Source: Citrus sinensis
Lineage: Eukaryota > Streptophyta > Magnoliopsida > Sapindales > Rutaceae
Assembly (NCBI RefSeq): GCF_022201045.2
Contig: NC_068558.1
Location: 42,489,501-42,553,500 of the forward strand
DNA length: 64,000 bases
Direction of reading: 5' to 3'
A program made the translations under genes and the position numbers. Shown one piece after another: positions 41,395-64,000 of this stretch. The first letter of the stretch is position 1. Every line of letters begins with the position of its first letter. Below the pieces are notes generated by a model that saw only the letters and a list, made by a program, of their open reading frames with translations, had not been told where the DNA came from and made no database searches.

Positions 41395-44300
41395 TTAACC
41401 AGAGAGTGACGGTCCACGGAGATCGATCGTGAGAAAATGAAGCTGTCGTCTCAAATGCAAGACCTGAAACAATGATAAAAAGGAAAGTACTCACTCAAAT
41501 TGCAAGCATAACAAGTCTAATCAGATCATATAAATCAGATGCAACATATATATGACTTCTTGAATATTAACCACATCACCCTAAGGACCTTCCCGAGTGG
41601 TTCTAAAGTAAGTTTTGGTCAAAATATAATCTCTAAGGATCAGACAACGATGGATAATGGAAAAAGGATTTAAAAAAATAAAAAAAAATTAATTACCTCC
41701 AGTTGAAGCGGAGTAGGGAGATTGTCAATTGATGTAAGATGATTAAATTGAGCAAGTAGCTTTTCTTGTTTAATTCCGGCCCATGTACGTTGAGGCAGTG
41801 CCAATACAAGTAGTGTCAGAATGCCGGCTGTTGAAGGATGCAGCAAATTTCCCGATTGACTGGTTAAAGATGAAGGAACCAACAACATGTCAATACCTTG
41901 ATCAATGCCATTTGTTCTTGTTTTCCCAGAAACCAATGTCATAGGCTTTGCACCGTCAGCTTTTGCAAGTGTCAGATTTGTTTCCTTACGGCAGGTTTGA
42001 TCTAACAAACTCGGTTTCATAGGAAATACTGAATTTTCATTGAAACCCAAAGATACGAGACTTTTGCATGAGCAGATTTCAGAAGCCAGCCATCTATTAA
42101 GATGCTTGAATAGTTCAGTTCCTTCAATTATTTTCAATACTTCTTCCTGAAAATATACCAAACACACAGTATAAATACCAGAAAATTTGAAAATTATATA
42201 AAACCTGGAAAATTAAACAAGCCTTACTTTCTCTATTTTACTTGAGAAAACACCAGCATCTTCTTGTCTCCAGAACTCTGCAACACACTTGATGAAGTCT
42301 TTTAAATCAACGGGCGCGGAATTGAATAGAACAGAGAGTATATTCTCAACACCCTTTAAATCCTTCAATTTCATTCGGGGGGGAACATCTTCTGTCAAGT
42401 ATTTGGCAACCTTTTTCAGATCCTCGTGTCCACTACTGTGCATTAGAGAACTAACGAATGCTTTGTGCGACCTTGAGATAACCATGAACCTGGAAAAAAA
42501 GCATTAATCTTATTTAGTTCTGACAAATTATTATATATCTTATTAACATTTATTACAATATAAATAAGATTTTATAAGCCAATAGAAAATTAAGATTACC
42601 CCCTATGCTGTCCTGTTGACTCGTCAGTCGTATCCATGGCTTCCCAAAGAAGTGTAAGAGGCATCCAATGGGGAGGATACTTGAATCGAGCAACATCCAA
42701 AATAAGAACCATGTCCCTTCCAGCATGATAGCCCCCAATTGGTGAATAATGACCATTTCCGTTCTGCATTTTTACTTTCAGTCAAACTTTTGTAAACATG
42801 AGAAAATGTTTGACCCTAATTATTCCTATTATTATTAATTTTACGGCATGTCACAGCGATTACAGAGATTAAGCTTGGCTCATAATTAAACCTGCTCTCC
42901 ATCCCCTCGATAAGGAATGAATCAGATCATCAAAACCCCCCAAAACTCAGCTTTAGTTTATGAGCTGTTAAAACACAGCTAATCAAATTCGCGGGCCATA
43001 ACTAACGACCTAACGGAACTTTTGACTTCATAAAAGTAGAGGTGTCAAAAATACCCGCCCGGTCCAAACCCGGACCGTACCCGGGCGTTGTGGACCGGGT
43101 ATGAAGCCGGGTCGGTCTTGGGCATCACTTGATAAACTCGGAACTCGGATTTTATTAAAAAAATATTATAAAATATATATTATTTTAAATATTTATATTT
43201 TGTTGACTAATTTATTATACATATATAAAGTTTTAAACACTTAAAGTTTATATTTTCATGTCAAATTTTATTGCAATAAATTTGAAACTTATAAAATTAC
43301 CAAAAAATATAAAATATATACACATATAATATTAAAAAATATAAAATTCGGGTACCCAGATTAAAACCTGGCCCGGACCCGGACCGGTTGCATCCGGGTA
43401 GGGTCCGGTCATTGCAATACTCGGACCCGGCCTGGAGTTTTGCCATCCCTACATAAAAGCTTAAGTAAGTCACGTGATTTACGTGTGCATTCGCAGGCTT
43501 ATTTATAAAGCAACACACTAACCGTGTCTTGGATTCACCATCACGAGGAGAGATTTTATAATACTTCTGTTGTATTATATTTATTTAATGCATATATAAT
43601 ATGTCTACATTTGTTTTAAATAATAATTATATAATTAATTTTTATATTTAATTCATACAAACATGTCATATATGCATTAACTGGGTGCAGCTTAACAAAG
43701 AATTCTAGAATCTCTCCTTCACTACAGATTAGATAGAGAGATTCTAAGAGTACATGTTTTGTATTATACCCACTTAATATATGTTTGATATGTCTGTATT
43801 TATTTTAAAAAATAACTATGTAATTGGTAATTATACTTAATTTATGCATACATGTCATACATGCATTAGGTGAATGTGATCTAATAGAGCTACTCTAAAA
43901 TTTTTCCTTTGTGAGAGATTAGATGGAGAGATTTTAGAGTACCTCTATTATATTACACCCGCTTAATACATATAGAACGTGTGCATTTATTTTAAAACAT
44001 CATCATGAAGTATATATTGTACCTGTTTAAAAACTGGTCTATGATATGAGGTGATCACATGATGAGAATCCTCTGATGAGGAGGCAGAAGAAATAACATG
44101 TCTACGAAAATCATCAATGGAGCTTTCGTTCGTCCTAAAAGCTTCGACGTTAGCTCCATTACAGTAAGCGGAATATGCAACTTTAGCAAATGAAATTCCC
44201 TCATCTTTAATCTTGCTCAAAGGTTCACAGCAATCCAACATCGTGTCATCAAACCATCTCCAAGGCCCTGTCCCTGTAGAGTTAAGAGTATATACAAGAT

Positions 44301-44731
44301 AATTAATCCTACATATATGTTTGTTTTAAGTAACCAAATTCTGATTAGTGAGTTATTTTGTGATCAATTTACGTACCTTTCCATGTTCTCCCGGGATCAA
44401 TGGCAAGGGCATTGAAAACCATGGCAAGGCTTGCAACTCCGCAGTAATTAATCTCTGACTGAGTCTGGTAGTATGATATCAACTTAAAAAATCCTTCCAT
44501 AGTCGCTCCTTCCAATGCTTCAGTAAACAATTGCTTCAAAATGAATAAAATTTGGCAACACACATCATTAGTTTGAGATAGTTTAAAAAAAATTTGAATT
44601 CCTGCGTGCAACTAATAAAAGGACTTATGCTGTTGGATTAATTTACTAACCTTGCCTTGTGGGGAAGCAAACTCAATCGCCGGAGGAGAAAGAGCACCTC
44701 TGTAATAAAGCCCTTCAAGTTCCTTTGGCAT
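41395..44731 (-). CDS. Phytochelatin synthase copy 1 (divergent; intron loss and reduced C-terminal cysteines)
   Basis: Gamma-glutamylcysteine dipeptidyl transpeptidase (EC 2.3.2.15), which makes phytochelatins from glutathione in the cytosol for Cd/As detoxification. Seven minus-strand exons: 44651-44731, 44377-44533, 44023-44267, 42600-42763, 42228-42489, 41697-42146 and 41395-41463, 475 residues, phases consistent. Catalytic triad Cys58 (INYCGVAS), His166 ([12 protein letters not shown]) and Asp184 ([13 protein letters not shown]) is present. Compared with its neighbours, the exons for SRSHKAF and SGHEDLKK are fused with no intron. A GTAAGG donor at 42227 ends that exon six codons early. 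The C-terminal half lacks the CQG and CDFDQSNC cysteines. The exon 2 acceptor (TTTTGAAG) is weak. Intron 42764-44022 carries a hAT MITE and tandem repeats. It may be active with altered regulation, or decaying. Confidence 0.85.
43037..43451. mobile_element. hAT-type MITE inside an intron of PCS copy 1 (415 bp)
   Basis: Begins TAGAGGTGTCAAAA and ends TTTTGCCATCCCTA, with 8-bp target-site duplication CATAAAAG at 43029-43036 and 43452-43459. Subterminal parts are rich in ACCCGG/CCGGGT motifs in both orientations and the centre is almost pure A/T. The 8-bp duplication and TA-GGTGTC-type ends place it in hAT. No coding content. Confidence 0.85.
43540..43985. repeat. Tandem repeat of about 195 bp in PCS copy 1 intron
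   Basis: Two full units plus a partial third, each starting AGAGATT(T/C)TA, then TATTATA, (T/C)(T/C)TAAT, ATGTCTACATTTGTTTTAAA-like and ACATGTCATA(T/C)ATGCATTA, and closing with AGATTAGAT. Units are diverged (roughly 75-80% by eye). Related motifs (AATTCTAGAAT, CTCTGATGTATT, ACATGTCAT) occur in the NPGR2-like gene intron at 4455-4650, so this is a dispersed family. Confidence 0.65.
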
Positions 44732-44854
44732 TTTCAGTATGCTAATGCTTTGAATGAACTGATCTAATTATTATTGAGAGTTTATTTAGGGAGATTAATT
44801 AACTGTAATTATTGGAGCACGATGTTTGATACTCCGCCTAGCCTTGACTGCTGC

Positions 44855-44864
44855 TATTTATATA
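44855..44864 (-). promoter_or_regulatory. TATA box of PCS copy 1
   Basis: On the minus strand TATATAAATA in the context GTGTATATAAATAGCAG, about 125 bp upstream of the ATG at 44731, a normal plant spacing. Confidence 0.6.
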
Positions 44865-45094
44865 CACTTGTGTAAGTAGTAGGATAGTGGACGTGTGGCT
44901 AGCTTTCAGAAATCACAGCAGCACGTTTTAATTTTTCGATCTTTACAGCACTACTGTTAGATTTTTTTTGTTTTTTGTTTTTTCAATTGGTCTGTTTTTA
45001 ATGGAGTCAACATTCTGTGGCCATAGTTATGCCGACAATGTGAGAATCGCTGTCACATTTCACGTGGTCGATGAACAATAAGCACGAGGGATGC

Positions 45095-45215
45095 ACACAC
45101 ACACATATATAGATATATATTGAGGCAAATGCTAAGTTACAATTATTGTAACTTACATCTCTTATGTGAACCACACACATATATATAGATATATATTGAG
45201 GCAAATCTCTCCTTT
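45095..45215. repeat. Direct repeat pair around a short perfect palindrome
   Basis: ACACACACATATATAGATAT followed by ATATTGAGGCAAAT occurs at about 45097-45131 and again near 45172-45207. Between them lies AGTTACAATTATTGTAACT (about 45134-45152), a perfect inverted repeat around one central base. Confidence 0.7.
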
Positions 45216-45590
45216 TATTGAACATTGAAGACAAGATATATAGCAGCACATTTGGCCGATGATATAATCCTCGCACATTAATTCCTAGTAGATAAATTAA
45301 AAACTTGTCTAGCCATTAAGAAAACTCAAATAATCTTGCCAGTATTAAACTTTACTTTTTTCCATAGATAGAAATTTTCCTTCTCAAGAAGTTAATTGAT
45401 TTAATCTCATGATTTTGTTTTTAATTCAATGATATTATCTAATGAAACAAGAGTTTCACACGATTGACCAGTTTGCAGTCCGTTTTTTAAGTAGAATTGA
45501 AACAAATGCTTCTCAAAAAAAAAAAAAAAAATTGAAACAGATGGGTTATATGGGAATTGGATAACAAATTTTATTTAATCTAAAGTCAAA
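45208..45590. repeat. Non-coding sequence shared with the last intron of PCS copy 3
   Basis: Blocks such as CTCC(T/-)TTTATTGAACATTGAAGA, AGCACATTTGGC, GATATAATC(C/T)TC, GATTGACCAGT and AATTGAAACAGAT occur in the same order and orientation at about 58365-58690 within the last intron of PCS copy 3. This stretch lies upstream of PCS copy 1. No PCS exon is recognisable next to it. Confidence 0.6.
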
Positions 45591-47337
45591 ATGACCCCTA
45601 AAAGAACCAAAAATGCCCACTCACTTTAATGACAGTCATTCTGTTTCTTCCTTCGCTGTATCAAACAAGTTTTATGAAAATACTTGTACTAAATTGCGTT
45701 GTTGATGCCAGGAGACTTTATCAGAACCGGTACTACTATTACTGCTGCTGCAAAAGAACCAAAAATGCTTTGTGTGAAACAAATAACTAATAGTACAAGG
45801 ACACCACGAATGATTGTGGTTATATATTTCAGTTTATATTCTTTAATCTCTGCGTTTTCTTTTCTTTTCTTTTCTTTAATCATATGAATACTTCGTCCCA
45901 ATCTACACAATCGCTCAACTTGATTGGGTAATTTTTTATTGTATCCACTAAAAGTGCTTTGCAATCGAAATATTGATATGATTAATTTGATTTTTTTTAA
46001 AATATCTTTCCCTGCGGAATTCATCCATAGTTTCCACTCTTAATTAAATGAAATAATTACACAAAGTATTGTATATTTTTTAAATTTAATCAGAAATTAA
46101 TTTCTAATCTCTAAGTGAAAGAAACACGCTGAATTTAAAGAACCGTATAATATTACTAAAGAATTGAAATAAGTAAGACTGAGTTACACATTTTTAAGAA
46201 AAAATGCTAGATAAAGAGAAAGCTGAGAGAACACTGAAAGAAAAAAAAGAAGAAAATAGTAGAGAGAGGAGTGGGCAGAGAGAGAGAGAGAACTAATTTC
46301 TCTCGGTGTTCTCTCAACTTTCTCTCTCCGTAACACCACTCCAATTTTAATTATGCTATAAATGTTGCCAAGTCATGCATGCAATTGTTGAGTAATTGCA
46401 TGAGACAGCTAGCATGCAATTGTTGAGAGATAGCTAGCATCCAAACTTTGATTACAACTGCATAATAAAGTTGGCACCAATTATCAAGTTTGCCAATTTG
46501 GTAAATTGAAGCCAAATTGTGGTAGGTGAGCAATACTCCCTATGAATAGAAGTGTCATTTTTTATTTGTTAGTAAAATTATCTTTAAATCTTTACCCATG
46601 AACGTAAGGTTTATGTGAAACCACGTAAATTATTGTGTATTATTTTCTTTGTATTTGTTTATCATCACATTTATATTTCTCTAGAAGTCACGATCACTTG
46701 AATGTTAGTAATTGCTCAACTTGCACTTCTATAACAATAAATTGTATTGGTTGAGACATATCCGAAGTTAATTGCCTTATCCAAAAAAAAAAAGAAAAAA
46801 GAAAAAATGAATTGAACTGATCCTAAATAGTGGATTTTTTACTTTTGTTAGGGGTGGAGCTATATACACTATATATTTACTTTGAACACTCACATTTTAA
46901 TATTTGTTTATATTATTAAATTAACCTTAATATAATTTACTATTAAGGACAATTTTAATAAAATATAGTATAACAAATTTTTATCCAATGTCATATTTTA
47001 TCCACAGGAAACCTCATCAACAATGAAGAATTGAATCAATATTCACATGGAAACGTTGTCCATGAAACGTATGGAGTTAAAGAAAATCAAATTAGTTGAT
47101 AATATTTTTTTTTCCTTTCAGTTACTAGTTGCTTTATTTTTTTTAATTTTTAGGTTAAATCAATTTATAATTTTATTATATTTATAGTTAAATTTTTTTA
47201 ATAAAAATTACAAATCTAGCAAATAATATTATCAATACCGCGGTTACAAATATTTAATTAACTGATTAAATTATGAAATTAAAGCTTTTAGCTGAAAGTG
47301 AACGTTACAGATTTGAATGAAATTAGTTATAGACGAT
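45591..47337. other. Gene-free AT-rich region
   Basis: Intergenic DNA between the PCS-intron-like block and the solo LTR. It contains a fold-back MITE relative at 46206-46333 (listed separately). No supported coding sequence; open frames are short and AT-driven. Confidence 0.4.
46206..46333. mobile_element. Fold-back MITE related to the element at 62 kb
   Basis: Starts TGCTAGAT, then AGCTGAGAGAACACTGAAAG. The right arm is CTCTCGGTGTTCTCTCAACT, its inverse, separated by a GA-rich stretch. Terminus and CTCTCGG/GAGAGAA arm motifs match the nested element at 61713-62244, so both belong to one family. The right end is incomplete. Confidence 0.55.
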
Positions 47338-47342
47338 ATTAC

Positions 47343-49038
47343 TGTTGGGGAAAAATTAGGTTTTTAAATTTTTTTTTATAAAACATTTTGAAGATCGCTC
47401 TCATATAATATATAAGAATACGTAATCTAGAAATCATACCTTGAAAGTCCGAGTTGGCTTTCTCTGCTGAAATAATTTAGGCTCCTAGATAACGATCCGC
47501 CACCACCACTCCTTTTAGATCACGATCCGTCACCACCACGCTTGTTAGATCACGAACTGTCACCAATGATCTTCCAGGTTATGACTCAGGTTCGATCTGC
47601 ACTTGACGTGTGGGCGCCTTTATCACTACCAAAACAACTAGCACGAGAAAATTTTTCTCTCAACAGCAGAGAGAAAAATCTTTTTCTCTGATCGGTATAA
47701 AGTGGCTGCTCTTTTTTCTTTAGAGAAAATAAGCATTTTATATCACCATTTAGTGAAAACCCTATGCTCCAAATAATCAAAAAACAAAACCCACGATATT
47801 TGCTTTTTCAATAGGGGACCCACCTTTTAAAATAACATAAGGCCCCTTACACAAAAGTTAATTAAATGGAGCCTCCCACTAGAGAAAATAAGCATTTTAT
47901 ATCACCATTTAGTGAAAACCCTATGCTCCAAATAATCAAAAAACAAAACCCACGATATTTGCATTTTCAATAGGGGGCCCACCTTGTAAAATAACATAAG
48001 GCCCCTTACACAAAAGTTAATTAAATGGAGCCTCCCACTAAATGATATATTTAGGCTTTTGACCCAAATAGTTAGTTATTTTACTTATTAGTCCAGTAGT
48101 AGTGCAGTCAATTAAATGAGCTAACCTGGGGATCATTTGGGAACATACAATAGTGGCTACAATAATTAGGCCTGTAATTAAACTAGCTCAATTATTTAAT
48201 TCCAAATCTACTCTACTAAAAGATTAGAACCGACTTCCATAATTGTATGCTCGAATAATAATTCGTCCCAAGCCACATTGATTTCTTTACTGCACAATTC
48301 TTTGTACCACATCGTTAATTAAATTGATATCTCAACTGTCCAATCAATTTAATAACATCTTATTCTTTGATCCTTACTGGTTTTCTCTAATAATTATTTT
48401 CAACATACTAAATATGTTGACACACTCTGGCCAGAGAATTCTATGATCAAGTGCCGAAAACTCATCAAGAGATATGTTATACAAATTCTATATTGTTAAT
48501 CAATAACTCCAATACTCATAATTGTTCCCACCAAGATACCGGGTAATCTTGACCACAAGGATGTGTCGTGCCCATTGGTAACTCAAATGGAATAGCAATT
48601 ACAATCATGAAATCATAATTAACTCAAGATTAAGATTACAATAAAATCAATGCCTATGAGATTTAATAAGTCTGACAGTTATTACAAAGTTAATTAAATC
48701 TCATATGTGATCCTGTTCAATGTAGTCGTATTACATCAATAAATTCATACATGATTAAGACAAATCATTCAATGAATTTATTACAGTCTATACCTAAATA
48801 AAGTGTCCAACCTTATTTATTAACTGCGAACTAAATTTATTTAATCATAAGATAATTTGTATTTATATCTTCTGTGAATCCACATGGTGATCACATAAAT
48901 ACATATAATATGATTAAATGGACTTTAATAAAAATATTAATGCAATTAAGATATTACTCATTTATTTTATTAATCAGAAAAATTATTTATTACAATTAAA
49001 TAAACACATATACTTTTAAAGAACATATTTTCCCAACA
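47343..49038. mobile_element. Solo LTR of an LTR retrotransposon (1.7 kb)
   Basis: Fossil LTR with TGTTGGGGAAAA at one end and TTTTCCCAACA at the other, flanked by the exact 5-bp target-site duplication ATTAC (47338-47342 and 49039-49043). No gag, pol or second LTR lies inside or beside it, so it reads as a solo LTR. Family is probably Ty1/copia-type but not proven. It holds an internal tandem duplication (listed separately). Age cannot be estimated without a partner LTR; the intact target duplication argues against great age. Confidence 0.8.
47722..48039. repeat. 159-bp tandem duplication inside the solo LTR
   Basis: Unit 47722-47880 (AGAGAAAATAAGCATTTTAT ... GGAGCCTCCCACT) is repeated at 47881-48039 with only about three differences, so the duplication is recent relative to most repeats in this window. 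Confidence 0.9.
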
Positions 49039-49043
49039 ATTAC

Positions 49044-50125
49044 CATCACAGAAATAGCTATAAATTGGTGGTGGCTTCTCTTCATTTCAAGAGATAACAA
49101 CAACTTCACACACAATCACAAAACGATTTTCCTCCCTTGACGTTTTCTGTGTCTATGAGTTAAAGCATTTTGAAAGTTCGCGGGAGGAAATTCGGTCGTG
49201 CGCCTCAATTGTTTCATACATGTTGTATCTTGGGAAACATATATACGCCATCTAATTCTAAAGCATCCAACAATATGTGGCAGATTTATTCTAAGGAAAT
49301 TGTCCGGTATAGGCCTCAGTTTTTATGATATTATATTGTCTATAGTTTATGATTAGTTACTGTGTGCTATAATTTAATTTACTGTTTAGCTCTATTTCAG
49401 TTTTGTTGTACTCGCAATATTGTATATTTTTAATAATAAATAATATAAATTGATTGATATATTTTTAATTTTACTTAATGACAGAAATTGAAAATTTAAT
49501 AGAAGGGGTAAACTAGTCCAAATAAAAATAATCCATCGCTTTCCCCTTAGAATTCCATGACCATGTTTAATCAAAGAATGAATAAATTAATATTTTCTCT
49601 CCACTCTACTTCTTTTCTTTCTCCTCTTCTCTTTTATACTCTTCTCCTCTCCTTTCATTTCTTCAAATGAAACAATCAAATACCACCTAAAATTTAAAAT
49701 ATATCATATATTGACAGTACCACCACTTTCAAATTAAAATATTTTCAAACTTCCCAAATTTTGATTGAACATTCCTACCAACGCAACATGCTATGTTTCT
49801 CTCATGGTCTACACGTCATTACTTTATTTATTTTTTTTATTTTTTCTCCAACTGATGTGGCCAGCAAGCTATCGCTGGAAGTTGACTTTCCTTAGAAGCC
49901 AGCGGCACTGGAGCCATGAATCTTTGTCATTAATAGCCGCTTTCAGGATTAAAAAAAACTGAAGAAATCATTTTCATACGTAAGTTGACAACTTTTTTTT
50001 TTTAATTATTTATTCATTCATTGATTAAAGCTTAAAGCTCAGATCAAGTGGTAGCATTAATTCTCTAAGATCGATCGAGGTCGTCGATCTGTCTACTTTA
50101 CTTCTTTCAGTCGCCTAGCCGGGCC
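49044..50125. other. Intergenic region upstream of the SPX-RING gene
   Basis: AT-rich promoter-side DNA for the gene starting at 50126. No TATA box could be chosen with confidence. CT-rich stretch near 49595-49665. Open frames here are short and unsupported. Confidence 0.4.
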
Positions 50126-52669
50126 ATGAAGTTCTGCAAGAAATATGAAGAGTACATGCAACAAAAAGAGCAGAAACTACCTGAAGTTGCTTGCAAGAAG
50201 CTAAAGAACATATTGAAGAAGTGCGGGCTAGCTTTTCAATCTCAGAAAGACCCTGAATCTAATTCCAGTGCTGATGGAGTTGTTCAAATTAAAATTACCA
50301 GCTGCCACAATCATTGTCCTGGTATGTGTATCTCACAAACATTAATTAACAATCTGATTATGCAATATAATTTGCTGAATCAATAGTATGTGGTTTGATC
50401 TTAATTTATTAGAAATTCACAATCTAATTCATAGTCTATTATCTGTTGAAATTTACTTGATTATTGCTTTAATTTCTTAATGCTCAACACACAAGCTCAT
50501 TCATAATTATATATGATCGCTTATTAATTTTACATCTGTCTTTTTTAATTTTTAATTTCACATACTAGTTAATTTCTTGAGTATCCACTTCCTTGGATTT
50601 TTTTAAAATCTTTCTCGTATATGTTTAAATTAATTCATATCAAATTATCAATGTGCAGTGTGCGATGGAGCCTTCTTCCCTTCGCTTGTGAATGACATGT
50701 CGGCTGTTGTAAGCTACTTCAATGAGCGTGCAAAGGAATTGATTGAGCTTCATCAGGCTGCTGGTTTAAAGAAGTACTTTCTCTGGATTAAAGGAAAAAT
50801 GCAAGGGGGAGGCACCCATGTTTCCAGCTTAATTGAAGAAGGCAAAGAATTAGTTATCTATGCACTAATCAATGCCATTATGATTCAGAAATTACTCAAG
50901 AAATATGATAAAGTTAGTGTTAATTGTTGGTTTATTAATTATATTATAGTTTATTTATTTGTTATAAATCCTCTATTTCTTATTCAATATTGTAATAGAT
51001 CATTTAATTTTGTGGGATATATATTGTAGATTCATCATTGCTGTAAGCAAGGGCCGGCCTTCAAATCACAAGCTCAAAGTATGCAAATTGAAATCCTGCA
51101 GTCACCATGGCTGCGCGAGCTTATGGCACTGCACATCAATTTAAGGGAAACCAATGTCAGTTCAAGCACCACTGAGGCCATTTCATCCGAAGGCTACAGG
51201 CTAACATTTAACGACGACAAAGTATCACTCTCTTGTCAGCTCTTTGATTCCATCAGGCTTGATATTGAGTTGACTTGTCCTGTATGCCTGGTAAGTAATT
51301 GATTAATTAATTCTTTTCTTAAATCCGAGTAAATAGATAACAACAGGGATTTTTTGAAGTAATTGCTGAGCAATAGAAAAAGGTAGGTGCTATATATATC
51401 TCAACCAAACCCATCGTATGTTAAGCTTTTGATTACTGTTAATTGTAATATATATCGGTAGTGTATTTCAATTTAAAACACGAAAAAAAAAAGAAAAGAA
51501 GGGGTAGGGTAGTACCATTGATTGTACAAAGCACTAAACATGTCCTTTTATGTACAGATGCTCTGAAGGAAAAAGAAACGAAAAATTTTAATTTAATGCA
51601 CTTGTGGGTTATGGCCTTTAATATAAACCTATAAGGTGTGCAAAATTTTATTATGGTAACAGGAGACGGTGTTCGATCCGGTTTCTCTGACATGTGGTCA
51701 TATATTGTGCAAAATGTGTGCTTGCTCTGCTGCCTCAGTCTCCATTGTTGATGGACTCAAGCTAGCAGATCCTAGAGAAAAATGCCCTCTATGTCGAAAG
51801 GTAATTTCTCTTTAATTAATATTGCTAGTTTTCTTGAACTAGCTTCTTTGTTCGATTTGTTTAATTTTGAGCTAAATACACTATCAGAGACCATTTTTCA
51901 TGGAAAAATGAAAAAAGTTCTCTGCGGCATTAATTTAGTCATTAACAACTCAAATTTGTAGAAAAAACAAGTGATTAAACTCAATTTTAGGGTATGAGTT
52001 TTGGCCCCCACCAGGCAGTTATTTTATTCCCTATCTTAAAAATTTGGAGTGGGGTAGATATCCCCAAATATGAGTCGGGGTAGATTCTTGAACTATACTA
52101 TAGATTGTAATATATTTGTACACCATATTAATTTTTTTTTTCAAAAACTCTCTCTAAATTGTATTAATTTGATTCCAGGCAGGAGTATACCAAGGAGCTA
52201 TACACTTGACAGAGCTCGGTATTCTGTTAAGTCGAAGGTTTGTTTATATATGCATATCAACTATTTTTAATTGGAGATAAGTACCTACAAAATCGACATG
52301 CAAAATTTATATATAGTAACACTATCTCCAGCATATGATTTTAATTTGCGAGAGAGGTATGTAGGTAAGTGCTTTTTTGCAACAACTCTCCCAATACATA
52401 ATTATTAGAAAGCATAGAGAAGTGTTTATTATAGACTCTTCTTGAACTTAAAAGAAATTTTAGCCAAGGTTTGTAATCTTTTCTTTAATAGGGGTTGCCT
52501 TCAGGCTTCAGTGTTTATGCTGTTTCTCCAAATTTATCTAATTAATGGTTGTTATATAAACAGCTGCCGAGAGTATTGGGAGAAGCGGCTTCAGATCGAA
52601 AGAGTGGAGAGGGTTAAGCAGGCAAAGGAGTATTGGGAGAATCAATGTCGGGCTTTCATGGGAATTTAA
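50126..52669 (+). CDS. SPX-RING E3 ubiquitin ligase (NLA/BAH1-like)
   Basis: Ubiquitin ligase of the NLA/BAH1 family. Family members ubiquitinate PHT1 phosphate transporters (and nitrate transporters) at the plasma membrane and influence salicylate-linked immunity. Six exons: 50126-50321, 50659-50912, 51030-51290, 51663-51800, 52179-52237 and 52564-52669, phases consistent, 337 residues, the usual size for the NLA2/BAH1-like branch. The N-terminal SPX domain starts [13 protein letters not shown], with Lys-rich [14 protein letters not shown] helical middle follows ([20 protein letters not shown]). The RING is at about residues 233-285: [24 protein letters not shown] and CPLCRKAG. The C-terminal helix [20 protein letters not shown] is typical. 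It lies between PCS copies 1 and 2 without being part of their duplication. Confidence 0.93.
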
Positions 52670-54797
52670 ATAGCCAAATTACGTACTTAAAATAGTATTT
52701 GATTATGCTATTAGATTGCATGAAATTCATAATTCATAATTTTAAGTTAAAAATTAAAAATAACCTGGCCATAAATTAATTTATGTCAAGCCATGAAATC
52801 CTTCAGGTTCCCTGTCTCCGTAAGGAAGACTATCATTTTTCCCCCCTCAAAGAAAATAATATCTTAATTATCATTTTTTGCCCCATAGATTTCATATTTT
52901 TCGGTTGTCCTTAGACAACACATAATGTTACAAAATGCCCATTTCACGTCATTGAAAGAGGGATTCCACTTTTTGCTAATAACATTTTGATGTCAAAGTA
53001 CAGGAAGACTTTCCTCATGATGTTAGACCAATTTAATTTTATTATGATGAGAAGGTTATAATTTAGTGGAGTTTTAGTTGTAAATATTTTTGTTTTCACT
53101 TAGTTATCTTTAATGCGAGTAATATAAAAGTAAATATATTAATAATTAATTAATGGAGCTTGTCTATTTTAAATGAAGTGGATGAGGAGAATGGAAGAGT
53201 CATTGCATAATTAAGTAATCAGATTCAATAACTTCACTATACTAACTGAACGGATATCAATATTTTCCTCAATCATCCAAATGAGTAACAAGTCATGTAT
53301 GCTTTAACTTAAAAAAAAAAAAATCATTGTGCGATTAGACAAGAAGAGAAAGGAGATGATCCTGAAGATAATAGCACATAAATACAAGTTTGAGAAGTTA
53401 GAAATATTTTAGCTTTAATACGAAGGTGTACACACTAACAATTTATTATCTACCCGCAAGTTCAAATATTTTGTAACAACTCTAAAACATAAATTATTAT
53501 CTTAGACAACTTTTAAAATATACTTTATTTCATGTTAGAATTTAATAAAACTTTTTACAATATATAAAGAATTATTATTACGTAGAGGTAAGTTACTTAA
53601 AATGGGATTTAAAAAATTTATAACTTATCATAATATAAGCTTAAACTTATTTATAATTGGCCTAAGTTAGCCGAAATTTTTGACAACTACATGAAAATTA
53701 TTCCAATATAGAGTAACAACTATAAAAAGAATTTACAGTATGTTGGTGCTTAGGGTTTTTGACTTTTGAGTTACCTTCCTCCTTGCACATGCATTATGTC
53801 GGTGTGTGCTTCAAATTTTAATTAATCAATGCAAATGTTAAGCTCAAAGCTTTGCTCATTGTGCAAATTCATTATTGTTTCCTCGAAATCGATGGATTAG
53901 TTTTAGGGCCGTGTGCTTAAAAGAAACGAATCACTCCTCCCAAAAAAGGCCAAAGTTAAATTTCTGTGAGGGTCGTATGCATCTTATAAATTACGTAAGG
54001 TAACATAAACCCTTAATTAAGTTCTTAGATCAATTGCTCCTAATCAATCAATGTTCTTGCTGGATATCTTTATATTAAAATATTTGAAAATACGTAACGA
54101 ACTATATTTAAGAGATTAATAATGTGGGCTTGCAGAGAGAAAATATTTAGAACCTTGAGTAATTAATAAAAGATACAATCACAAGTTTTTTTTTATATAA
54201 ATTGATGTATAATAATATAACTAGTGGTGGTGGTAATATTACGTTTCGAATATTTGAAGTATGAATATTTCAAAAATCAGGAAAAAAAAAAAAATTACCC
54301 TATAGAGTCTTTAAGCTTGGAGTTCTAGTTTAACTAAAAATATTATAGCGAATCACACTGCCTCCCTGTAAGGTTAAAAGGAAATTCCACAACTTACCTA
54401 CGCGCATGGCCACTTTTGTGATCTTTCCTCTTTTAGCCGTCACCTTTAGGCTTTGATTGAGACTGAATACCGATTCCCCCTCCTTAAAGAAAGGAGAATA
54501 AATTCTCTTGTTCGTTCAATGGACGAATTAAAGTTCCGTTCTTTGCCAATATATATATATAAAGAGAAAATAATAGTCATGGCATTGAGGGTGGGCGTGG
54601 CATAAATGAGAGTATGCTCTTGATTGTAATCATGATAATGATATAGACAGCACTCACTTAAACACGAGCTCTTAATAAATACATGAGAAAAGATCAATAA
54701 TAACAGTAAAGCCTTAGAGAACTTGAATAAAGTATACCAAACGCCTAAACTAAACTACAAAGCTTCTTCATGGCTAGAAAAGATTAAAAACAGGGCA
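52670..54797. other. Intergenic region before PCS copy 2
   Basis: 3' flank of the SPX-RING gene, AT-rich middle with no gene, then the promoter side of PCS copy 2. A TATA-like run ATATATATATATAAAG lies at about 54549-54564. An in-frame ATG at 54723 precedes the chosen PCS start. No mobile element with clear ends was found. Confidence 0.45.
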
Positions 54798-56994
54798 ATG
54801 GCAGGACTTTATAGAAGAGCTCTTCCCTCTCCGCCGGCAATTGAGTTCGCTTCTCCTCAAGGCAAGGTAATTAGTAAGTTAAAACACCAACCTCGTCCTC
54901 ATTTTCTTTGTTCAATAATTTCTTATTGTTCAATGAATTTGCAGCAACTCTTTACAGAAGCACTCGGAGAAGGGACCATGGAAGGATTTTTCAAGTTGAT
55001 ATCATACTATCAAACTCAGTCAGAGCCTGCGTATTGTGGACTTGCTACTCTTGCTGTGATCTTGAATGCCCTCGCTATTGATCCTGGAAGAACATGGAAA
55101 GGTAATTATAATTAATCTATTAGCCTCCATCTTATACATATATTGTGAAATTGGTTACTTTCGAGCCAATTAAATTAAAGAAAATGATTGGATCTTAATT
55201 TTATTTTTTTTTATTTTTTTTAACACTTAACGACTTGCAGGCCCTTGGAGATGGTTTGATGATACAATGTTAGATTGCTGTAAGCCTTTAAGTAAGATCA
55301 AAGCTGAGGGAATTACATTTGGCAAAGTTGCTTGTTTGGCTTATTGTAATGGAGCCAAAGTCGAAGCTTTTAGGACCAACGAAAGTTCCATTGATGATTT
55401 TCGCAGACATGTCATTTCCTGTGCTTCTTCGGAGGATTGTCATGTCATTTCTTCATATCATAGAGGAGTTTTCAAACAGGTATAACGCTAATTAGCTTGT
55501 TTGCTTGTTTGTGAACTTTTCTGATTACCACTGAAACGATGATAAAAAATTTCGTTTTCTTATTGGATTGCAGACTGGAAGTGGTCACTTTTCACCAATT
55601 GGAGGCTACCATGCAAGAAAGGATTTGGTTCTTACATTGGATGTTGCTCGGTTCAAATATCCTCCCCATTGGGTTCCTCTTACACTTCTTTGGGAGGCCA
55701 TGGACACTATTGACAAAGCAACTGGACATCCTAGAGGGTCTTTCCTATGATAATAGAATTAGGCGAATCTTATTTCATGTAATTAGATACCAAAGGCACT
55801 ATGTTCAACTATAATTTTGTTATTAACTAAGCTTTTAACTCTTATTTCAGGTTCATGATTATATCGAGGTTTCACAAAGCACCATCTGTTCTTTATACTG
55901 TGGTATAACTCTTACTGGCGGTTCTCACTTATAAGCGAAAAATTATTATGGTCTCTGAACTTGTTTTTGTGGGTTCTTTGCAGAGCTGTAGACATGAGGG
56001 TTGGAGCAAGGTTGCCAAGTACTTAACAGAAGATGTTCTACACCGACTGAAAATGAACGACGTAAAAGATGTTGAGAATTTACTCTCTGTTGTATTTAAA
56101 TCAGCACCTGTTGATTTAAAAGAGTTTATCAAGTGGGTTGCAGAGGCTAGGAGACAAGATGATGCCGGTGTTAGCTTAAGTGAAGAAGAGAAAGCAAGGC
56201 TTATCATTAAGGTTTCTATTGTCTTCATAGAATCTGTTAGACAAAAAAATATATATATATTGCAATTGTTTTCTTTATGCCTTGAGTTTGGTATTACAGG
56301 AAGAGGTATTGAAACAGATTCAAGAGACTGAAATATTCGAGCGTATCAACAGATGGCTGGCTTCTGAAATTTCAGTGTGCGAAGGTTATAAACAAACATT
56401 ACCTAAAATAGCAGCTAATGTTCGTTGCCAAGGAGCACAAATGTTAGCTGGACAACTCAGCTCGTTAGATGAAACCTGCTGCAAGGAAACAAATGTAACA
56501 CCTGTAAAAGCCGATGGTGTGAAGCCTGTGACATTGGTTTCGGGAAAAATAACATCTAATGGCGTTGAACAAGGAATTGACATGCTTGTTCCTTCATCTC
56601 AAACGGAGCCAAGAAATATTCTGTGTGATTTCGATCAAAGTAACTGCAAAGGAATGCATCCTTCTACAGCCGATATCTTGACAGTAATTCTATTGGCCCT
56701 GCCACAACATACATGGTCTGGGATTAAAGAAGAGAAGCTACTTACACAACTGAATCGTTGTGTATCAATTGAAAATATCCCTTCTTTGCTTCAACAGGAG
56801 GTATATTTGTTTTCTGCTTAGTTCTTAATCCATTACTGTCTATATATCATAATCAACTTAGGCCAATGCCAATAAACCTGACAGGAAATTGATCTTGGTC
56901 TGAATTTGATTGCGTAATTGTACAGGTCCTGCATTTAAGACGGCAGCTTCATTTCCTTACTATCGATCTCCACGAACCGTCAGCCTCTGGTTAG
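54798..56994 (+). CDS. Phytochelatin synthase copy 2
   Basis: Same enzyme family as copies 1, 3 and 4. Eight exons: 54798-54866, 54945-55101, 55241-55479, 55574-55737, 55851-55902, 55984-56211, 56300-56800 and 56926-56994, total 1479 nt, 492 residues, all phases consistent. Start taken at [20 protein letters not shown], the family-typical N-terminus; an in-frame ATG at 54723 would add 25 residues. Catalytic residues Cys54 ([10 protein letters not shown]), His160 ([12 protein letters not shown]) and Asp178 ([12 protein letters not shown]). The C-terminal half keeps RCQGAQM, ETCCKET and [14 protein letters not shown], likely metal-responsive cysteines. The last exon encodes [20 protein letters not shown] and then Ser-Gly, differing from the canonical RRCQEN end of copy 4. 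It is the only plus-strand copy, convergent with copy 3. Confidence 0.94.
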
Positions 56995-57877
56995 TTTCTT
57001 CTTGGCGGTGTCTTAAGCCAAGTTTTGGCTTTCACAATGTAGGTATAGTATTATTGTTATTAGAACTAAGACGTGCTGAATGAAAAATAATTACAGTCTG
57101 ATAGAAAAGGTATGAAAATTAGTTGGCTGGTCTACTGGGCATAAGGAGTGTGATTTACTCGAAGGAACCGGAGAATAATTTTGAATACAATTCTCAAATA
57201 TAACGGCACTCTCATTGTTCGTTGGCTGCTTGTGGCTACATTACGTCCAACAGATGGCAGCAGTCCCTTGTAACAATGAAGTGAATTTTCTCACATTTCA
57301 ATTGTAAAAATTACTTTCTGATGTATGTTTGATTATGCAGTTAGATAGTCTTGTGACTATAGGTTAGTTTTAAAAATATTTAGTCCAAGTTGTTCTGTTT
57401 CCATTTGATATTTTCTCCATCTATCATGTATCACCGCGCAGCAGTGTGCTCGGATAAAATTATTTAAGTTCGACTCCGATAACAGCAGAATAAGCTAATG
57501 AGTTATGGATTAAGAAAAATGATATGGAATAAGAATTGGAACTTGAGACAAAACAAGCAGGCGAGCTCTAACAAGAAGCGTTACAATCAGAAAAAGTCCA
57601 TACGGTAATTACTTATTCCATTGAAATTCAGATGTCTAAGATAAGAAGCAAGAAACAAACAATATTAATTATTTTGTTTTGTCAAAGGTTGAGTATTCTT
57701 TCAAAAAATAAAAAGTTGAGGATTACAGTTATACTGGAGCTCTTCACTTAATTATATCCATCTCCGTGGTCAAAATACTTTACCATTTGTTTTTATTAAA
57801 ATCTCATGGTTTCTATCACCCCCATGAATGCCAAAGATTGGAATGTTACCTTCATCAAGAAGAAATTAAGGAGAAGG
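56995..57877. other. Shared 3' region of convergent PCS copies 2 and 3
   Basis: An 883-bp gap between the stop codons of copy 2 (plus) and copy 3 (minus). It must hold both 3' UTRs; no open frame or repeat of note. Opposed transcript ends of similar sequence could pair, which makes small-RNA production conceivable (inference). Confidence 0.5.
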
Positions 57878-60800
57878 TCAAAGAGCACTGAGATCGGTCA
57901 TTAGGAAATGGAGCTGCCAGCGCAAATGCTGGACCTGTAATAGCCATGAAAAGTACACTCAGGAATCTTCAAGTATAGTATATTTGACTGAATTAGTAAC
58001 AATGCTGATATTCTAATAAATTATTAAGTTGTCAGCCTAGGCAATCAGAAAACTCAAATGCAGAACAAGTCTGATGAAACTACGAATCAAAAAACCATGC
58101 GCATCAGATAGGGAATGTGGGATTTAAAGCATTGACCAACCAGGTTGCTTTATTCAACTTCTAAATCTGATGTGAACTAATTCAGTAACTCCACCGAACC
58201 CAAATTAACTCTGTTGACCAAAATTTCAAAATCAAAACCGGTTAATACCAATAAACCTGACTGAGTCGATTATTGACTAGCACTAGTATTGGCTAGCACC
58301 AAACTAGTGCTAAGAATGAAAAACTACTTCCCCAAGTACAAAACTTAGTTAGGAAATCTCTCCTTCTGTTGAACACTGAAGATGAGAGAGCTTTTATGCA
58401 ATTTGCTAAACAGTAGCACATTTGGCAGAGAATATAATCTTCCACATTTCAACATAAACTCATGAAGACTGACGTATTGAAGAAAATTCATAGTAATCTT
58501 ACAATTATCACATCTTCCATATAACGTTTCCGTCTCAAAATGTCAGTTGGCTTTATTGCTTTTAATTTTCAATGGTTTTGTCTATTGAAGTCTCATTTGA
58601 CACTGTCTCCTGGTGATTGACCAGTAAGGCGATCCATTTTACAAGTTAGCAATGGGTTAGAATTGAAACGGATAGGTTGGAAAACAAACCTTTACGAAAT
58701 TATAACTTCAGTATAATATTCAACTAAAAGAATGACTATAAACGAAAAAACAAAGACAATCTTTTCCATAGAATATAAAAGAACACTGGAAAAGGAGACG
58801 GAGATCGGATAACTGACAAACAACTAAGGAGAAAAATGTATTACTTCCTGTTGAAGCAGAGAGGGGAGTTTGTCAACTGATGCAAGGTGATTGAATTGCA
58901 TGCGGAGCTCCTCTTCTTTAATGCCAGACCATGTATGTTGTGGCAAGGCCAACAAAAGTACCGTCAGAACGTCTGCCGTAGAAGGATGCATCCCTTTGCA
59001 ATTACTTTGATCAAAATCACACAAATTACTCAGCTCAGTTATAGAGGAAGGAACCAGTGTTTCAATCTCTTTTTCGATGCCATCTGTAGTTACAGTCCCT
59101 GAAACCACTGTCATAGCCTTTTCATCATCGACTTTTAGAAGTGTCACATTGGTTTGCCTACAGCATGTTCCTTCTGATGAACTGAGTTTTCCCATGAAGA
59201 GTTCTGCTCCTTGGCAACAAATATCCGCAGCTAGTTCGGGTAATGTTTCTTTCAAGCCCCAAGAGGTGACACCTTTACAAAGTGAAATTTTAGAAGCTGA
59301 CCACTTGGCCACATACTTGAAAAGTTCAGTTTCTCGTGTTTGTTTCAATACCTCTTCCTGAAATGCCAAACATTGAAACGTCAAGATCAGAATTCTACAT
59401 CAGTTGTTTGTCTATCAAATAAATAATAAATAAATAAGAAATGGAAGAAAATCACTGAAATGACATGAAAATTCACCATTTTCAAGCGGAAAAAAAATAA
59501 AAACAGGTTCATAGGAAAGGGAGAAGGCAAAAGAGAGGGGAGCAGGAATAAGAAAAAAGCTAGAGAAAACCTTCATAACCAGCCTTCCTTTCTCCTCTTC
59601 ACTTAAGATCATACTCCCATCCTCTTGTCTCCGAACCTCTGCAACCCACTTAATGAACTCTTTTAAGTCAGCAGGTGCTGATTTAAATATAACAGATAGT
59701 AAATTCTCAACACTCTTCACATCATCAGATTTTAACCGAAGGGGAACATCTTCAGTTAAGTACTTTGCAACCTTGTTCCAGCCCTCATGTCTACAGCTCT
59801 GCAGACAGACAATAATGATGAGGGAGCAAATTAGAATATCTTCCCATCACAAGCAAGAAAAAGGTACATTCAAGAAAATAGTGGTATCCGTAAATGCCAC
59901 CATGAAAAGCAAACAACTTTTTTCATCGTGTAGCTGATTGATCAACTGTTTTATTTTACCGTCCATTATATTTATTTCAACATCTTACTTACCTTTTGAT
60001 CTCAAGAAACTCCTTTAAGAAAGGTGCATATGCATATACATGAGAATAATTTAATAATGATTCATATCCTCAGGTTCTCTACATAGGCCAAATATGATTA
60101 GCTCTATTTGAACCATGCTTACATGCTACAGTGGCCCATATGGAGGGAAAAGAAAACATGATAAAGAAATTTCCATTCTCAAGTTAGAGAAAACTTCTAA
60201 TAAGAACAGTACCACAGTATAGAGAATGGATGGTGCTTTGGGAATCCTTGAGACAGTCATGAATCTGAAAACAGAATAAAAGCATAATCAAGAATATGTG
60301 TGAGTCAAATATGCATAATACTGTGGTGTCTTTTGAGAAATCAAAAGCTGGAAACCTTATTACAATAGAATAAGTCTATTCGATAGATAACTCACTGAAC
60401 AAATGATACCCTGATACAATAAGGAAAACTCACAGTAGAATAGATTACCCCCTACGATGTCCTGTTGCATTATCAATAGTATCCATGGCCTCCCAAAGTA
60501 GTGTAAGAGGAACCCAATGGGGTGGATATTTGAAACGAGCAACATCCAAAATAAGAACCATGTCCTTTCCAGCATGATAGCCTCCGATCGGTGAAAAATG
60601 ACCAGTTCCAGTCTGCAATCAGACAAGACAGTGAATTTTTCAAATGACTCTTAGTATATTTAAGTAGAAGAAACTTTTGTATCTTCAGTATTGAGATCAA
60701 GAAATATCACAAATAATCAGATTGCGAATTATAACACACAGAACAACTACACGAGGCCAATAGGAATAAGCTATAAATTTGAATTACACCTGCTTAAAAA

Positions 60801-61445
60801 CTCCTCTATGGTATGAGGTGATGACATGGGAATCCTCTGAAGAAGTAGAGGAAATTACTTGTCTGCGAAACTCATCAATGGAGCTTTCATTTGTCCTAAA
60901 AGCTTCGACATTAGCTCCATTACAAAAAGCCAAACATGAAACTTTACCAAATGTAATTCCCTCGTCCTTAATCTTGCTTAAAGGCTCACAGCAATCTAAC
61001 ATTGTATCATCAAACCATCTCCAAGGCCCTGGAAATTAATTCCAATATATCAAAATGTTTCTTTTAAGTAACTAAAGTGGAAATCTGCTTAAGAGTTTTA
61101 AAACAATTACCTTTCCAGGTTCTTCCAGGATCAATAGCGAGGGCATTCAGGACGACAGCGAGGCTGGCAAGACCGCAGTATGCTGGCTCAGATTGAGTCT
61201 GGTAGTATGATATCAATTTAAAAAATCCTTCCATGGTCCCTCCTTCAAGTGCTTCTGTGAACAATTTCTGCAACAAAAAAAAAAAAAAAGGATTGGAAGT
61301 TTTTAGTTGAATTAAATGCATGCAACAGAGAGAGAGAGAGAGAGAGCAAGTAATTGATTATAGTAATTACCTTGCCTTGAGGACAAGCGAACTCAATTGC
61401 AGGAGGAGAGGGAAGAACTCTTCTGTAAACCCCTGCCACTGCCAT
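57878..61445 (-). CDS. Phytochelatin synthase copy 3
   Basis: Eight minus-strand exons: 61371-61445, 61111-61267, 60790-61028, 60449-60612, 60213-60264, 59571-59798, 58845-59357 and 57878-57934, total 1485 nt, 494 residues. Exon lengths two to six equal those of copy 2. Start [20 protein letters not shown]. Triad Cys56 ([10 protein letters not shown]), His162 ([12 protein letters not shown]) and Asp180 ([12 protein letters not shown]), the same numbering as I recall for Arabidopsis PCS1. The C-terminal half is Cys-rich ([29 protein letters not shown]). The last exon is short and divergent, encoding [18 protein letters not shown]. The last intron (57935-58844) is long and shares sequence with DNA upstream of copy 1. 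It looks functional. Confidence 0.94.
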
Positions 61446-61712
61446 TTTTCTTTTTTGATTTTTAATTTTACTTTACTTTTCCAGCTAAGGCTTGCAAAAC
61501 CATTCAGTTAAATGTTGATCAATGGCCTCATGGATGGAGCCAAAGGAGAATCCATGTTAGAAATGATGAGTGAGCCCGCGCCGTCATCGCGTCAGACAAG
61601 AAAAATGAACTAATGCAATCACGATATCAGTCAACGTCCAAATACGTTTTCTTTTTCCCTTCCTTCGAAAGTAAGAAAAAGGGAAAAAAATGACTGTTAA
61701 AGGGTTGGAAAA
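61446..61712. other. Upstream flank of PCS copy 3
   Basis: Probable promoter and 5' UTR of the leftward PCS copy 3. No clear TATA box. A CG-containing patch (GAGCCCGCGCCGTCATCGCG) lies at about 61574. No gene. Confidence 0.4.
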
Positions 61713-62244
61713 TGCTTGTCAGCGAGAATGCTGAGAGTAGGGATGGCAATTTTTTTCGATCGTTTGGGAATGGAATTTGGATATAGTTTTGTTTTAATAA
61801 AAAATTAGGGATGGAATTGAGATTTTTTTTATCCTAATTATATATGCGGGACAGGAGTGGGATTGATAAATTCCATCCCATCTCGTTTCATTACCAATTA
61901 AGAATGAAATTTTTTTTAATTAGGATGGAATCTCGTAAGATCTTATCTCTTTTGGGATGGGATTGGAATATATTTTTGTCTTAAAAAAATATAAGGACGA
62001 GATTGAGATATTTTTTCATCTCATTTATATATACAAGATGAGAATGGGATTGGTAAATCTCATCCCATCCCGTCCCATTGCCAACCCTAGCTGAGAGAAT
62101 GCCGAGAGAAACGGCATACAGTAATGTCGTTTCTCTCGGCGCCACCCCCCACCACGTGAACTTTTGCCCCTTTTTGTGCTAGAGAAACGGCATTACTGTA
62201 TGACGTTTCTCTCGGCATTCTCTCGGCGTTCTTGACATCTAGCA
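61713..62244. mobile_element. Fold-back MITE split by a nested hAT MITE
   Basis: Arms built on GAGAGAATGCCGAGAGAAAC, CGGCATACAGTAATG and the inverse CATTACTGTATGACGTTTCTC, TCGGCATTCTCTCGGCG, making a strong hairpin around a GC-rich loop (CGCCACCCCCCACCACGTG). The left arm is interrupted by the hAT MITE at 61738-62089, whose 8-bp target duplication GCTGAGAG is arm sequence. Without the insert the element is about 175 bp. Its terminus TGCTAGAT (inverse at 62237-62244) matches the relative at 46206. Confidence 0.75.
61738..62089. mobile_element. hAT-type MITE nested in a fold-back MITE (352 bp)
   Basis: Begins TAGGGATGGCAAT and ends ATTGCCAACCCTA, flanked by GCTGAGAG at 61730-61737 and 62090-62097, an 8-bp hAT duplication. 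Subterminal GGGATGG/CATCCCATCCC motifs recur in both orientations. No coding content. It inserted after the fold-back element had. Confidence 0.85.
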
Positions 62245-63553
62245 CTCCTAGCAGATGCTACTAAAGTCTAAAGTGTTATATCCAGGTCAGCGAAATACTT
62301 GCACCGATCTATTTTGGATTATTATTGAAGTGTGAAGTCTATTATTATTAAAATAAGACTTCAAAATTTGTCATCTATCCAGAAATTGTAATCAAGCAGT
62401 CGATACTCTGGCTAAATTTCCTCTTAGTTGGAGCCACTCTCTTGTGCGGGCGGAGGATATTTACAACACTTGGCCTATTTTCTTTAAGTTATTTCTTGGA
62501 ATAATAAGTATCTATTTTTTTTAAAAGAAAAAAAAAACTGTGACATATACTTCTAACGAGAGGGTATCTGATAATAAATTTTCAATAATTAATTAAAATA
62601 AAAAATACTTGGATAAAATTCTTTTACAAAAAAGATAATATGTTAGAACTTCAGTGTGATGATTGTACAGATTATATCATATTTTCAATAAAATTCATAG
62701 GGATTTATGTGATTATCCCTCAACTTTAGGGATTACAATTTACAGCAATTAAGGTTGTCATTTTTAAATGTAAAAATAATTGTCATTTACTTACAAAAAA
62801 AAAATTTGTTATAGTTCAAAAAAACTATTAAACCATTTAATTTAATAACAATAACCGCAAAATTATTAAATTATATGATTTAATAATATAATATAATTAT
62901 AGTATTAAACTGTATAGTTTGATAACTTTCTCAAACTTAATAAAATTTAGGATCGTAAACTAGATCTATGATATATATTTACGTGGAATTTACTCGAATA
63001 CTAATAAATAAAGGTGAAAGCAAAGATTGATCACATCATGTTCATATTCTACACCTGCTCTTGTTAGTAGATGTACCCCCGCACGAGATAAACCCAACCC
63101 AAACCCGGCATGCGAACTCTCGGGTCTTTATCTGTTGCGGGAAAGTGTTTTAGGTCAGGTTCCGATCCTTCGGGTTCACTCAAAAAAAAAAATAATAACC
63201 AGCTTGGACCCAGGTTTTGTCATCCCCAGTATTCCGCTCTGAACAACACAGTTAATCCTCAGAACACAACTGTAGCCTCTGCATTATGGGATTTTGATCC
63301 CTGAAGGGTGCCTCTTACCTCTTCATGGTTAGGTTTTGATCTCTGGAAAGTAGCTTTCCGTCATTGACCAAGTCATTTGAACCCTGGGGAGACAGCATTT
63401 GCTTCTGCAGGAAGGAACAACCTAAAGAAGGGAAATAAATGGCCTTTGTGCAGTGCATATCTAAGATTTTCACACATTCAGAGCACAAGATAAATTGCCT
63501 TCTTTGATGGCAAAGCAACAGTTACTACATTAAAATTTAGATATAAGAGGGAG
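62245..63553. other. Intergenic region between PCS copies 3 and 4
   Basis: AT-rich DNA with an RNase H-like fragment (62362-62490) and, at about 63085-63185, ACCCAACCCAAACCCGGCAT-type and CGGGT motifs like the ends of a degraded hAT MITE. Otherwise no genes seen. Confidence 0.45.
62362..62490 (+). pseudogene. Fragment of a LINE/RNase H-type domain
   Basis: One frame reads FKICHLSRNCNQAVDTLAKF, then PLSWSHSLVRAEDIY and NTWPIFF. The HxSRNxNxAxDxLAK pattern matches the C-terminal end of plant RNase H-like domains found in non-LTR retrotransposons and related genes. Only this end is present, with no surrounding reverse transcriptase, so it is a dead fragment. Confidence 0.5.
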
Positions 63554-64000
63554 CTAAATGCTTAGTGCAGCAAGATCCTCATCTACCTTATTCTCTTGGC
63601 ATCTCCTAAGGATGTGGAGTTGACGTCGCAGGTGCAAAACCTGCCAAAATTCATATTTCACAATGAGAAATCTTGCATGTTGATATTAGAGAATTAGAGG
63701 TCACATAGCCAACAGTAATGAACTTATTGCACCCATCTGACCCACAACAAAGATGAAAGCTCCGTTCTGATACCACAATGTTTATACTCTTAAGACTTAA
63801 CATACTTCACAATGCAGATTGACAAGTTCCTTCCATTCATCTTTTATACAATTACAATACCACTAACAGAATATCCAGAGTCAACATTTGAAATGCAAAA
63901 GAATAGAGAATTTTTTTTTTTTCAAAAGGATAATGTATTTACCTCTTCTTGAAGCAGTGTAGGAAGATTTTCTGTTGTAACAAGGCCAAGAATTTGTCGT
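63554..64000 (-). CDS. Phytochelatin synthase copy 4, 3' end only (runs off the window)
   Basis: Two minus-strand exons are visible: 63943-64000 (continuing beyond the edge), encoding RQILGLVTTENLPTLLQEE, and 63554-63640, encoding [20 protein letters not shown], then EDLAALSI and a stop. The join is phase 0, as in the other copies. This C-terminus (RRCQEN, then acidic DEDLAA) matches the end I recall for canonical plant PCS1 proteins better than copies 1-3, so copy 4 may be the ancestral-type gene. The rest of the gene, including the catalytic half, lies to the right of the window. Confidence 0.88.

Follow-up and report, generated by a model that had tools for sequence, protein, structure and literature searches.

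A tandem cluster of phytochelatin synthase genes with one D1-type copy and three diverged D2-like copies

Phytochelatin synthase genes and their surroundings

The window considered here, the whole 64,000-nucleotide stretch of DNA that was analysed, carries three phytochelatin synthase (PCS) genes together with the 3′ part of another between positions 41395 and 64000, in the strand order -, +, -, -. This arrangement had been proposed in an initial annotation and is confirmed by our exon-level gene models, which were assembled exon by exon with GT-AG borders and checked via translation. The four genes, referred to as copies A to D, are built as follows.

44731..41395, minus strand: PCS copy A (D2-like), 7 exons, 475 aa
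44731-44651, 44533-44377, 44267-44023, 42763-42600, minus strand: copy A, exons 1-4
42489-42228 (exons 5 and 6 fused, intron absent), 42146-41697, 41463-41395, minus strand: copy A, last three exons
42147..42227, minus strand: copy A intron with shifted donor AAA|GTAAGG (42227), in frame
54798..56994, plus strand: PCS copy B (D2-like), 8 exons, 492 aa
54798-54866, 54945-55101, 55241-55479, 55574-55737, plus strand: copy B, exons 1-4
55851-55902, 55984-56211, 56300-56800, 56926-56994, plus strand: copy B, exons 5-8
61445..57878, minus strand: PCS copy C (D2-like), 8 exons, 494 aa
61445-61371, 61267-61111, 61028-60790, 60612-60449, minus strand: copy C, exons 1-4
60264-60213, 59798-59571, 59357-58845, 57934-57878, minus strand: copy C, exons 5-8
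63999..63554, minus strand: 3′ end of PCS copy D, with the D1-type tail RRCQENKVDEDLAALSI, 47 residues visible
63999-63943 (cut at the window edge), 63640-63554, minus strand: copy D exons

Copies B and C have eight exons each, the same count as the SrPCS gene of Sesbania with its 8 exons and 7 introns (PMC2812823); the last exon of C is a weak match at 57934-57878, 0.9 kb past exon 7. Copy A has only seven exons because its fifth and sixth are fused. Three copies had been called complete; copy A is so only if the new donor at 42227 is used. This donor replaced one at 42218, which had given an earlier model of 478 aa.

In a Pfam search, both PF05023 and PF09328 were present in all three full copies. 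Five of the six domain matches have E values from 2e-84 to 1e-107, those of the catalytic domain PF05023 ranging from 2e-84 to 2e-89, and the weakest is PF09328 in copy A (E 6.1e-58); for A, these values refer to the earlier 478-aa model rather than the final one of 475 aa. The PF05023 part of copy D lies outside the window. A sequence search of the PDB with copy C (last exon omitted, E up to 0.001) returned cyanobacterial Alr0975 only, over the catalytic half. A tblastn search of the window with the three full copies (E up to 10) revealed no further PCS copy; just two matches fell outside the four genes, with E values of 8.1 and 3.7. No Rfam match at gathering thresholds occurs within the window.

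Other features of the neighbourhood are the following.

3723-7078, minus strand: TPR protein
31877-33700, plus strand: succinyl-CoA ligase beta gene, in pieces
34790-36679, minus strand: GMC oxidoreductase, presumably of the long-chain alcohol oxidase type
39507-39797, plus strand: small ORF with a signal-like start and two GxPxCxDANxNIVPC repeats separated by a proline-rich stretch, no Pfam match
43548-44000: diverged direct repeats (about 73-74%) around AATCTCTCCATCTAATCT-like sequence, in the third intron of copy A
47721-48038: 159-base unit in two tandem copies, 98% identical
50069..52669, plus strand: open frames between A and B, not PCS, with a sub-threshold SPX match (Pfam, E 0.37)
62093-62225: repeated palindromic GAGAAACGGCAT...CGTTTCTC units between C and D, perhaps a small fold-back mobile element

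We take the open frames at 50069-52669 to resemble an NLA/BAH1-type SPX-RING ubiquitin ligase. Ligases of this type regulate phosphate transporters that carry arsenate too.

Catalytic residues, regulatory cysteines and D1/D2 placement

Residue numbers given here follow a working AtPCS1 sequence; its length of 485 and the placement of its triad and cavity residues at the published numbers support this sequence without proving every letter. On this numbering, the triad Cys56/His162/Asp180 is retained in all three full copies, as are Thr49 and Arg183. Moreover, the eight residues proposed to line the second-substrate cavity of AtPCS1 (Gln50, Glu52, Tyr55, Arg152, Gln157, Phe184, Lys185 and Tyr186; PMC3855540) are identical throughout A, B and C. 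Together with the PF05023 matches, these observations bear out the earlier statement that the catalytic N-terminal half and its triad are conserved in the complete copies. Copy A does show several odd changes near the active site, at positions 53, 54, 153, 158 and 163.

The regulatory half is where the copies part. In PCS of the liverwort Marchantia (MpPCS), the most conserved C-terminal cysteines are Cys231 and two twin pairs (PMC7586750). Copy C keeps all three of these sites. Copy B has Arg-Cys at the first twin-cysteine pair, so that one of the two is lost. In copy A the first pair is missing, falling inside a 13-residue in-frame gap, the second pair reads Cys-Arg, and Cys231 is replaced by Ser; A is also without a 10-residue stretch in which B and C have two more cysteines (CDFDQSNC). 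The C-half cysteine counts are 4 in A, 8 in B and 8 in C. With respect to the claim that C-terminal cysteine content differs in every copy, this is so for A, whereas B and C have the same number at places that only partly differ.

The consequences of losing these cysteines have been described for the Marchantia enzyme (PMC7586750). When the first pair was lost, total phytochelatin (PC) production in vitro rose with Cd and with Zn; loss of the second pair increased it with Cd only and lowered PC3 and PC4; loss of Cys231 left the protein unstable. In yeast, the first-pair mutant was more tolerant yet made less PC than wild type, for which the authors had no explanation. The twin-cysteine mutants are credited to AtPCS1 in PMC12157960; they were made in Marchantia PCS (PMC7586750).

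In terms of ancestry, a survey with a PCS tree of 136 genomes argues that the PCS genes of eudicots go back to an ancient tandem duplication into D1 and D2, for which it gives three differences: position 47 (Tyr in D2, Phe in D1), position 270 (as printed, Leu in D2 and mainly Pro or Ala in D1, a tendency described as "nearly exclusively") and the stretch at AtPCS1 471-478 (PMC11879510). Copies A, B and C all have Tyr at position 47 and all lack the 471-478 stretch, both being the D2 state. Copy D carries CQENKVDE matching AtPCS1 471-478, the D1 state; its exon for position 47 falls past the edge of the window. At position 270, A, B and C all have Ala in place of the Leu printed for D2, which is D1-like as printed. 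AtPCS1, a D1 protein, itself has Leu at position 270 in the sequence used here, and for this reason the printed clade labels or the numbering used here may be at fault. Because position 270 disagrees, D2 membership of A, B and C is likely rather than proven. Overall, we regard D as a likely D1 gene and A, B and C as likely D2 paralogues, and the locus is a nuclear one, from a eudicot judged by its PCS type. As a separate observation, the D1/D2 residues printed for position 270 in PMC11879510 do not fit the AtPCS1 sequence used here.

The last exons fall into two types, one in D and another common to A, B and C in diverged form. The initial annotation had the last exon differing in every copy; this holds for the sequence of the exon but not for its type, since A, B and C have homologous last exons and D alone differs in type. 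Its view that the number of copies is unusual was not borne out, as the mean is 2.5 PCS genes per angiosperm genome and the D1/D2 tandem pair is a known arrangement (PMC11879510).

Age of the copies, selection and the state of copy A

Across 459 shared codons, pairwise dS is 0.61 for A-B, 0.73 for A-C and 0.64 for B-C, and the corresponding omega values are 0.31, 0.29 and 0.20. These values mark the three copies as old and as generally subject to purifying selection. Assembly duplication, which the initial annotation had named as a threat to its reading, was checked and rejected on this divergence: copies separated by a dS of 0.6-0.7 are not assembly duplicates. The opposite gene orientations, and DNA matches between the copies that reach only 63-88% identity and lie mainly over exons, with some running through short introns, speak equally against haplotype copies, and we assign either origin a negligible probability.

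As had been claimed, the regulatory halves have diversified in a copy-specific manner; they also changed faster than the catalytic halves, with omega of 0.27-0.47 versus 0.11-0.19 and the higher value in the regulatory half for all three pairs. Branch estimates (N half first, then C half, each with its bootstrap interval) are 0.24 (0.13-0.43) and 0.54 (0.31-1.06) for A, 0.10 (0.05-0.20) and 0.34 (0.15-1.25) for B, and 0.12 (0.05-0.32) and 0.24 (0.15-0.37) for C; for exons 7-8 of A alone, omega is 0.53 (0.27-1.43). In the N half, A has a higher omega than both B and C in just 84% of bootstraps, and in the C half in 74%; relaxation on the A branch is therefore likely rather than firm. Taken together, the A branch has a constrained catalytic half and a regulatory half that is probably relaxed. 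In an alignment that includes AtPCS1, the changes in copy A at positions conserved elsewhere amount to 32 of 104 in the C half and 19 of 151 in the N half; the figures are 7 of 79 and 6 of 138 for B, and 9 of 81 and 4 of 136 for C.

Trees rooted on AtPCS1 place A with C in the N half (ultrafast bootstrap 86), with B in the C half (95) and with B for the whole protein (85). The conflict between the halves may reflect an old exchange between copies (gene conversion), with few sites bearing on it: either grouping is backed by 1-7 sites, and A-C and B-C are tied at 3 in the N half.

The splicing of copy A merits separate consideration. Its donor homologous to that of B and C (42204) sits behind an in-frame TAA, with a stop after residue 307, and the new donor AAA|GTAAGG at 42227 keeps the frame. 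On a rough matrix of splice-site frequencies, the new donor of A reaches 2.5, its homologous donor 1.6, and the donors of B and C 1.0 and 0.9. Another GT at 42178 (score 2.6) was rejected, as it lies behind the stop and its intron would be just 32 bases. Exons 7-8 of A contain no stop and no frameshift, only in-frame indels. In a neutral simulation starting from exons 7-8 of B (3000 runs), 1.33%, 0.43% and 0.10% of runs were stop-free at 0.2, 0.3 and 0.4 substitutions per site; dS on the A branch is 0.30 in exons 7-8 and 0.35 overall. Since these exons are open, and rarely stay so under neutrality, copy A has probably been coding for most of its history. Recent decay may nevertheless have set in.

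Predicted metal response and relation to known systems

The role of the C-terminal half of PCS is debated, activator, stabiliser and brake all having been proposed. The arrangement described above is, in our judgement, probably best explained by an ancient tandem pair that has been kept, with one D1 gene (D) and one D2 gene that multiplied locally, with inversion, into three old copies differing in C-half restraint. Copies A, B and C would make phytochelatins from glutathione through the usual transpeptidase with its Cys-His-Asp triad, for which metal-glutathione complexes serve as second substrate. The difference between them would lie in the degree of restraint that the C-terminal half imposes under excess metal. 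Restraint by excess Cd and Zn is predicted to weaken from C to B to A, because the cysteine sites are all present in C, one cysteine of the first pair is lost in B, and both pairs and the structural cysteine are lost in A. Two steps here are inferred: an effect of such losses on metal response like that seen in the Marchantia and Arabidopsis enzymes, and expression of every copy. The brake model is tentative even in Marchantia, given the lower PC content of the yeast first-pair mutant and the lower PC3 and PC4 of the second-pair mutant.

A further prediction concerns arsenic. A, B and C may respond to As(III) more strongly than D, because they lack the tail carried by D, which in AtPCS1 holds back As(III) activation. 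According to PMC7586750 and PMC9917255, AtPCS1 cut back by its last 10 residues showed increased As(III)-dependent synthesis, and the D2 copies of apple and Medicago have an As response much above that of the D1 copies (PMC11879510).

In its boldest form, the graded loss of restraint would make A, B and C a natural stepwise dismantling of the twin-cysteine brake (both pairs in C, a single one in B and none in A), giving activity ceilings under excess Cd and Zn that are low, middle and high, and with an unbraked A kept by selection; so complete a version is unlikely, in our view. The main rival of graded loss is that copy A is in early decay, its regulatory half degenerating and its splicing maybe broken, with the function left to B, C and D. 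The missing intron and the in-frame TAA ahead of the homologous donor are in keeping with decay, as are the loss of all three conserved cysteine sites, the number of changed conserved positions in both halves (above B and C) and the raised omega of the C half and of exons 7-8. The N-half omega of 0.24, the retention of every catalytic residue checked, the availability of a new in-frame donor and the persistence of exons 7-8 without frameshift or stop (0.10-1.33% of neutral runs being stop-free) all run counter to it. We consider decay of A a serious prospect that still falls well short of probable, and graded loss of restraint fits better.

It is also conceivable that A acts as a short PCS with 307 residues and hardly any C-terminal half, produced through the old donor or by intron retention. 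Use of the homologous donor, with its score of 1.6, would give precisely this stop, and a Sesbania PCS splice form said to be without the C domain still gave yeast Cd tolerance (PMC2812823). As AtPCS1 truncated at its C terminus reportedly loses activation by Zn and keeps that by Cd (PMC12157960), such an enzyme might be mainly Cd-responsive. The still open exons 7-8, with in-frame indels only, suggest instead that this part of A was translated for most of the time, and a short A strikes us as improbable. No more persuasive is the reading offered in the initial annotation, that the copies are sensors tuned to different metals, here by positive selection, and we hold it to be improbable to the same degree. 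Differences in metal response between PCS paralogues do occur elsewhere (PMC11879510), and the regulatory halves evolve faster than the catalytic halves in all three pairs; relaxed constraint yields the same pattern, however, and no omega point estimate exceeds 1 in any branch or part, although the C-half bootstrap intervals reach 1.06 (A) and 1.25 (B). The striking feature is the loss of conserved cysteines, entire in A and in part in B, which would fit a brake weakened by degrees better than a set of sensors.

Paralogues with a common catalytic half and with two, one or no twin-cysteine pairs would provide a natural test of the brake without designed mutants. Beyond this, PCS activity bears on the movement of Cd and As into shoots and grain.

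With respect to known enzymes, A, B and C share with AtPCS1 the order of the domains and every residue examined in the active site and the second-substrate cavity. Copy D has the AtPCS1-type tail, whereas A, B and C are without the tail stretch, and copy A, unlike AtPCS1, lacks both twin-cysteine pairs and Cys231. In relation to the MpPCS twin-cysteine mutants (PMC7586750), A and B carry natural losses at the very sites mutated; unlike those mutants, A, B and C differ by many other changes, and A is also without the structural cysteine. Since loss of Cys231 destabilised MpPCS, copy A may simply be unstable. Lotus japonicus likewise has three paralogues in one genome (LjPCS1/2/3), and the C-terminal halves of LjPCS1 and LjPCS3 differ (PMC11879510).

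A cluster with three D2 copies was not described in the titles and abstract openings of the literature searched, in which a Citrus paper mentions PCS just in the title of a reference; the supplementary table of PMC11879510 may list such genomes. The cluster is of a known kind, with more D2-like copies than the D1/D2 pairs compared here. In D1/D2 pairs such as MtPCS1/MtPCS2 (Medtr7g097190/Medtr7g097200) and those of apple, the two tail types adjoin, as they do here; the catalytic triad is likewise kept, and the D2-like copies likewise have Tyr47 and no 471-478 stretch (PMC11879510). What sets the present locus apart from the published pairs is the presence of three D2-like copies that do not all point the same way and of which A and B are separated by another gene, and the fact that these copies differ from one another in conserved cysteines.
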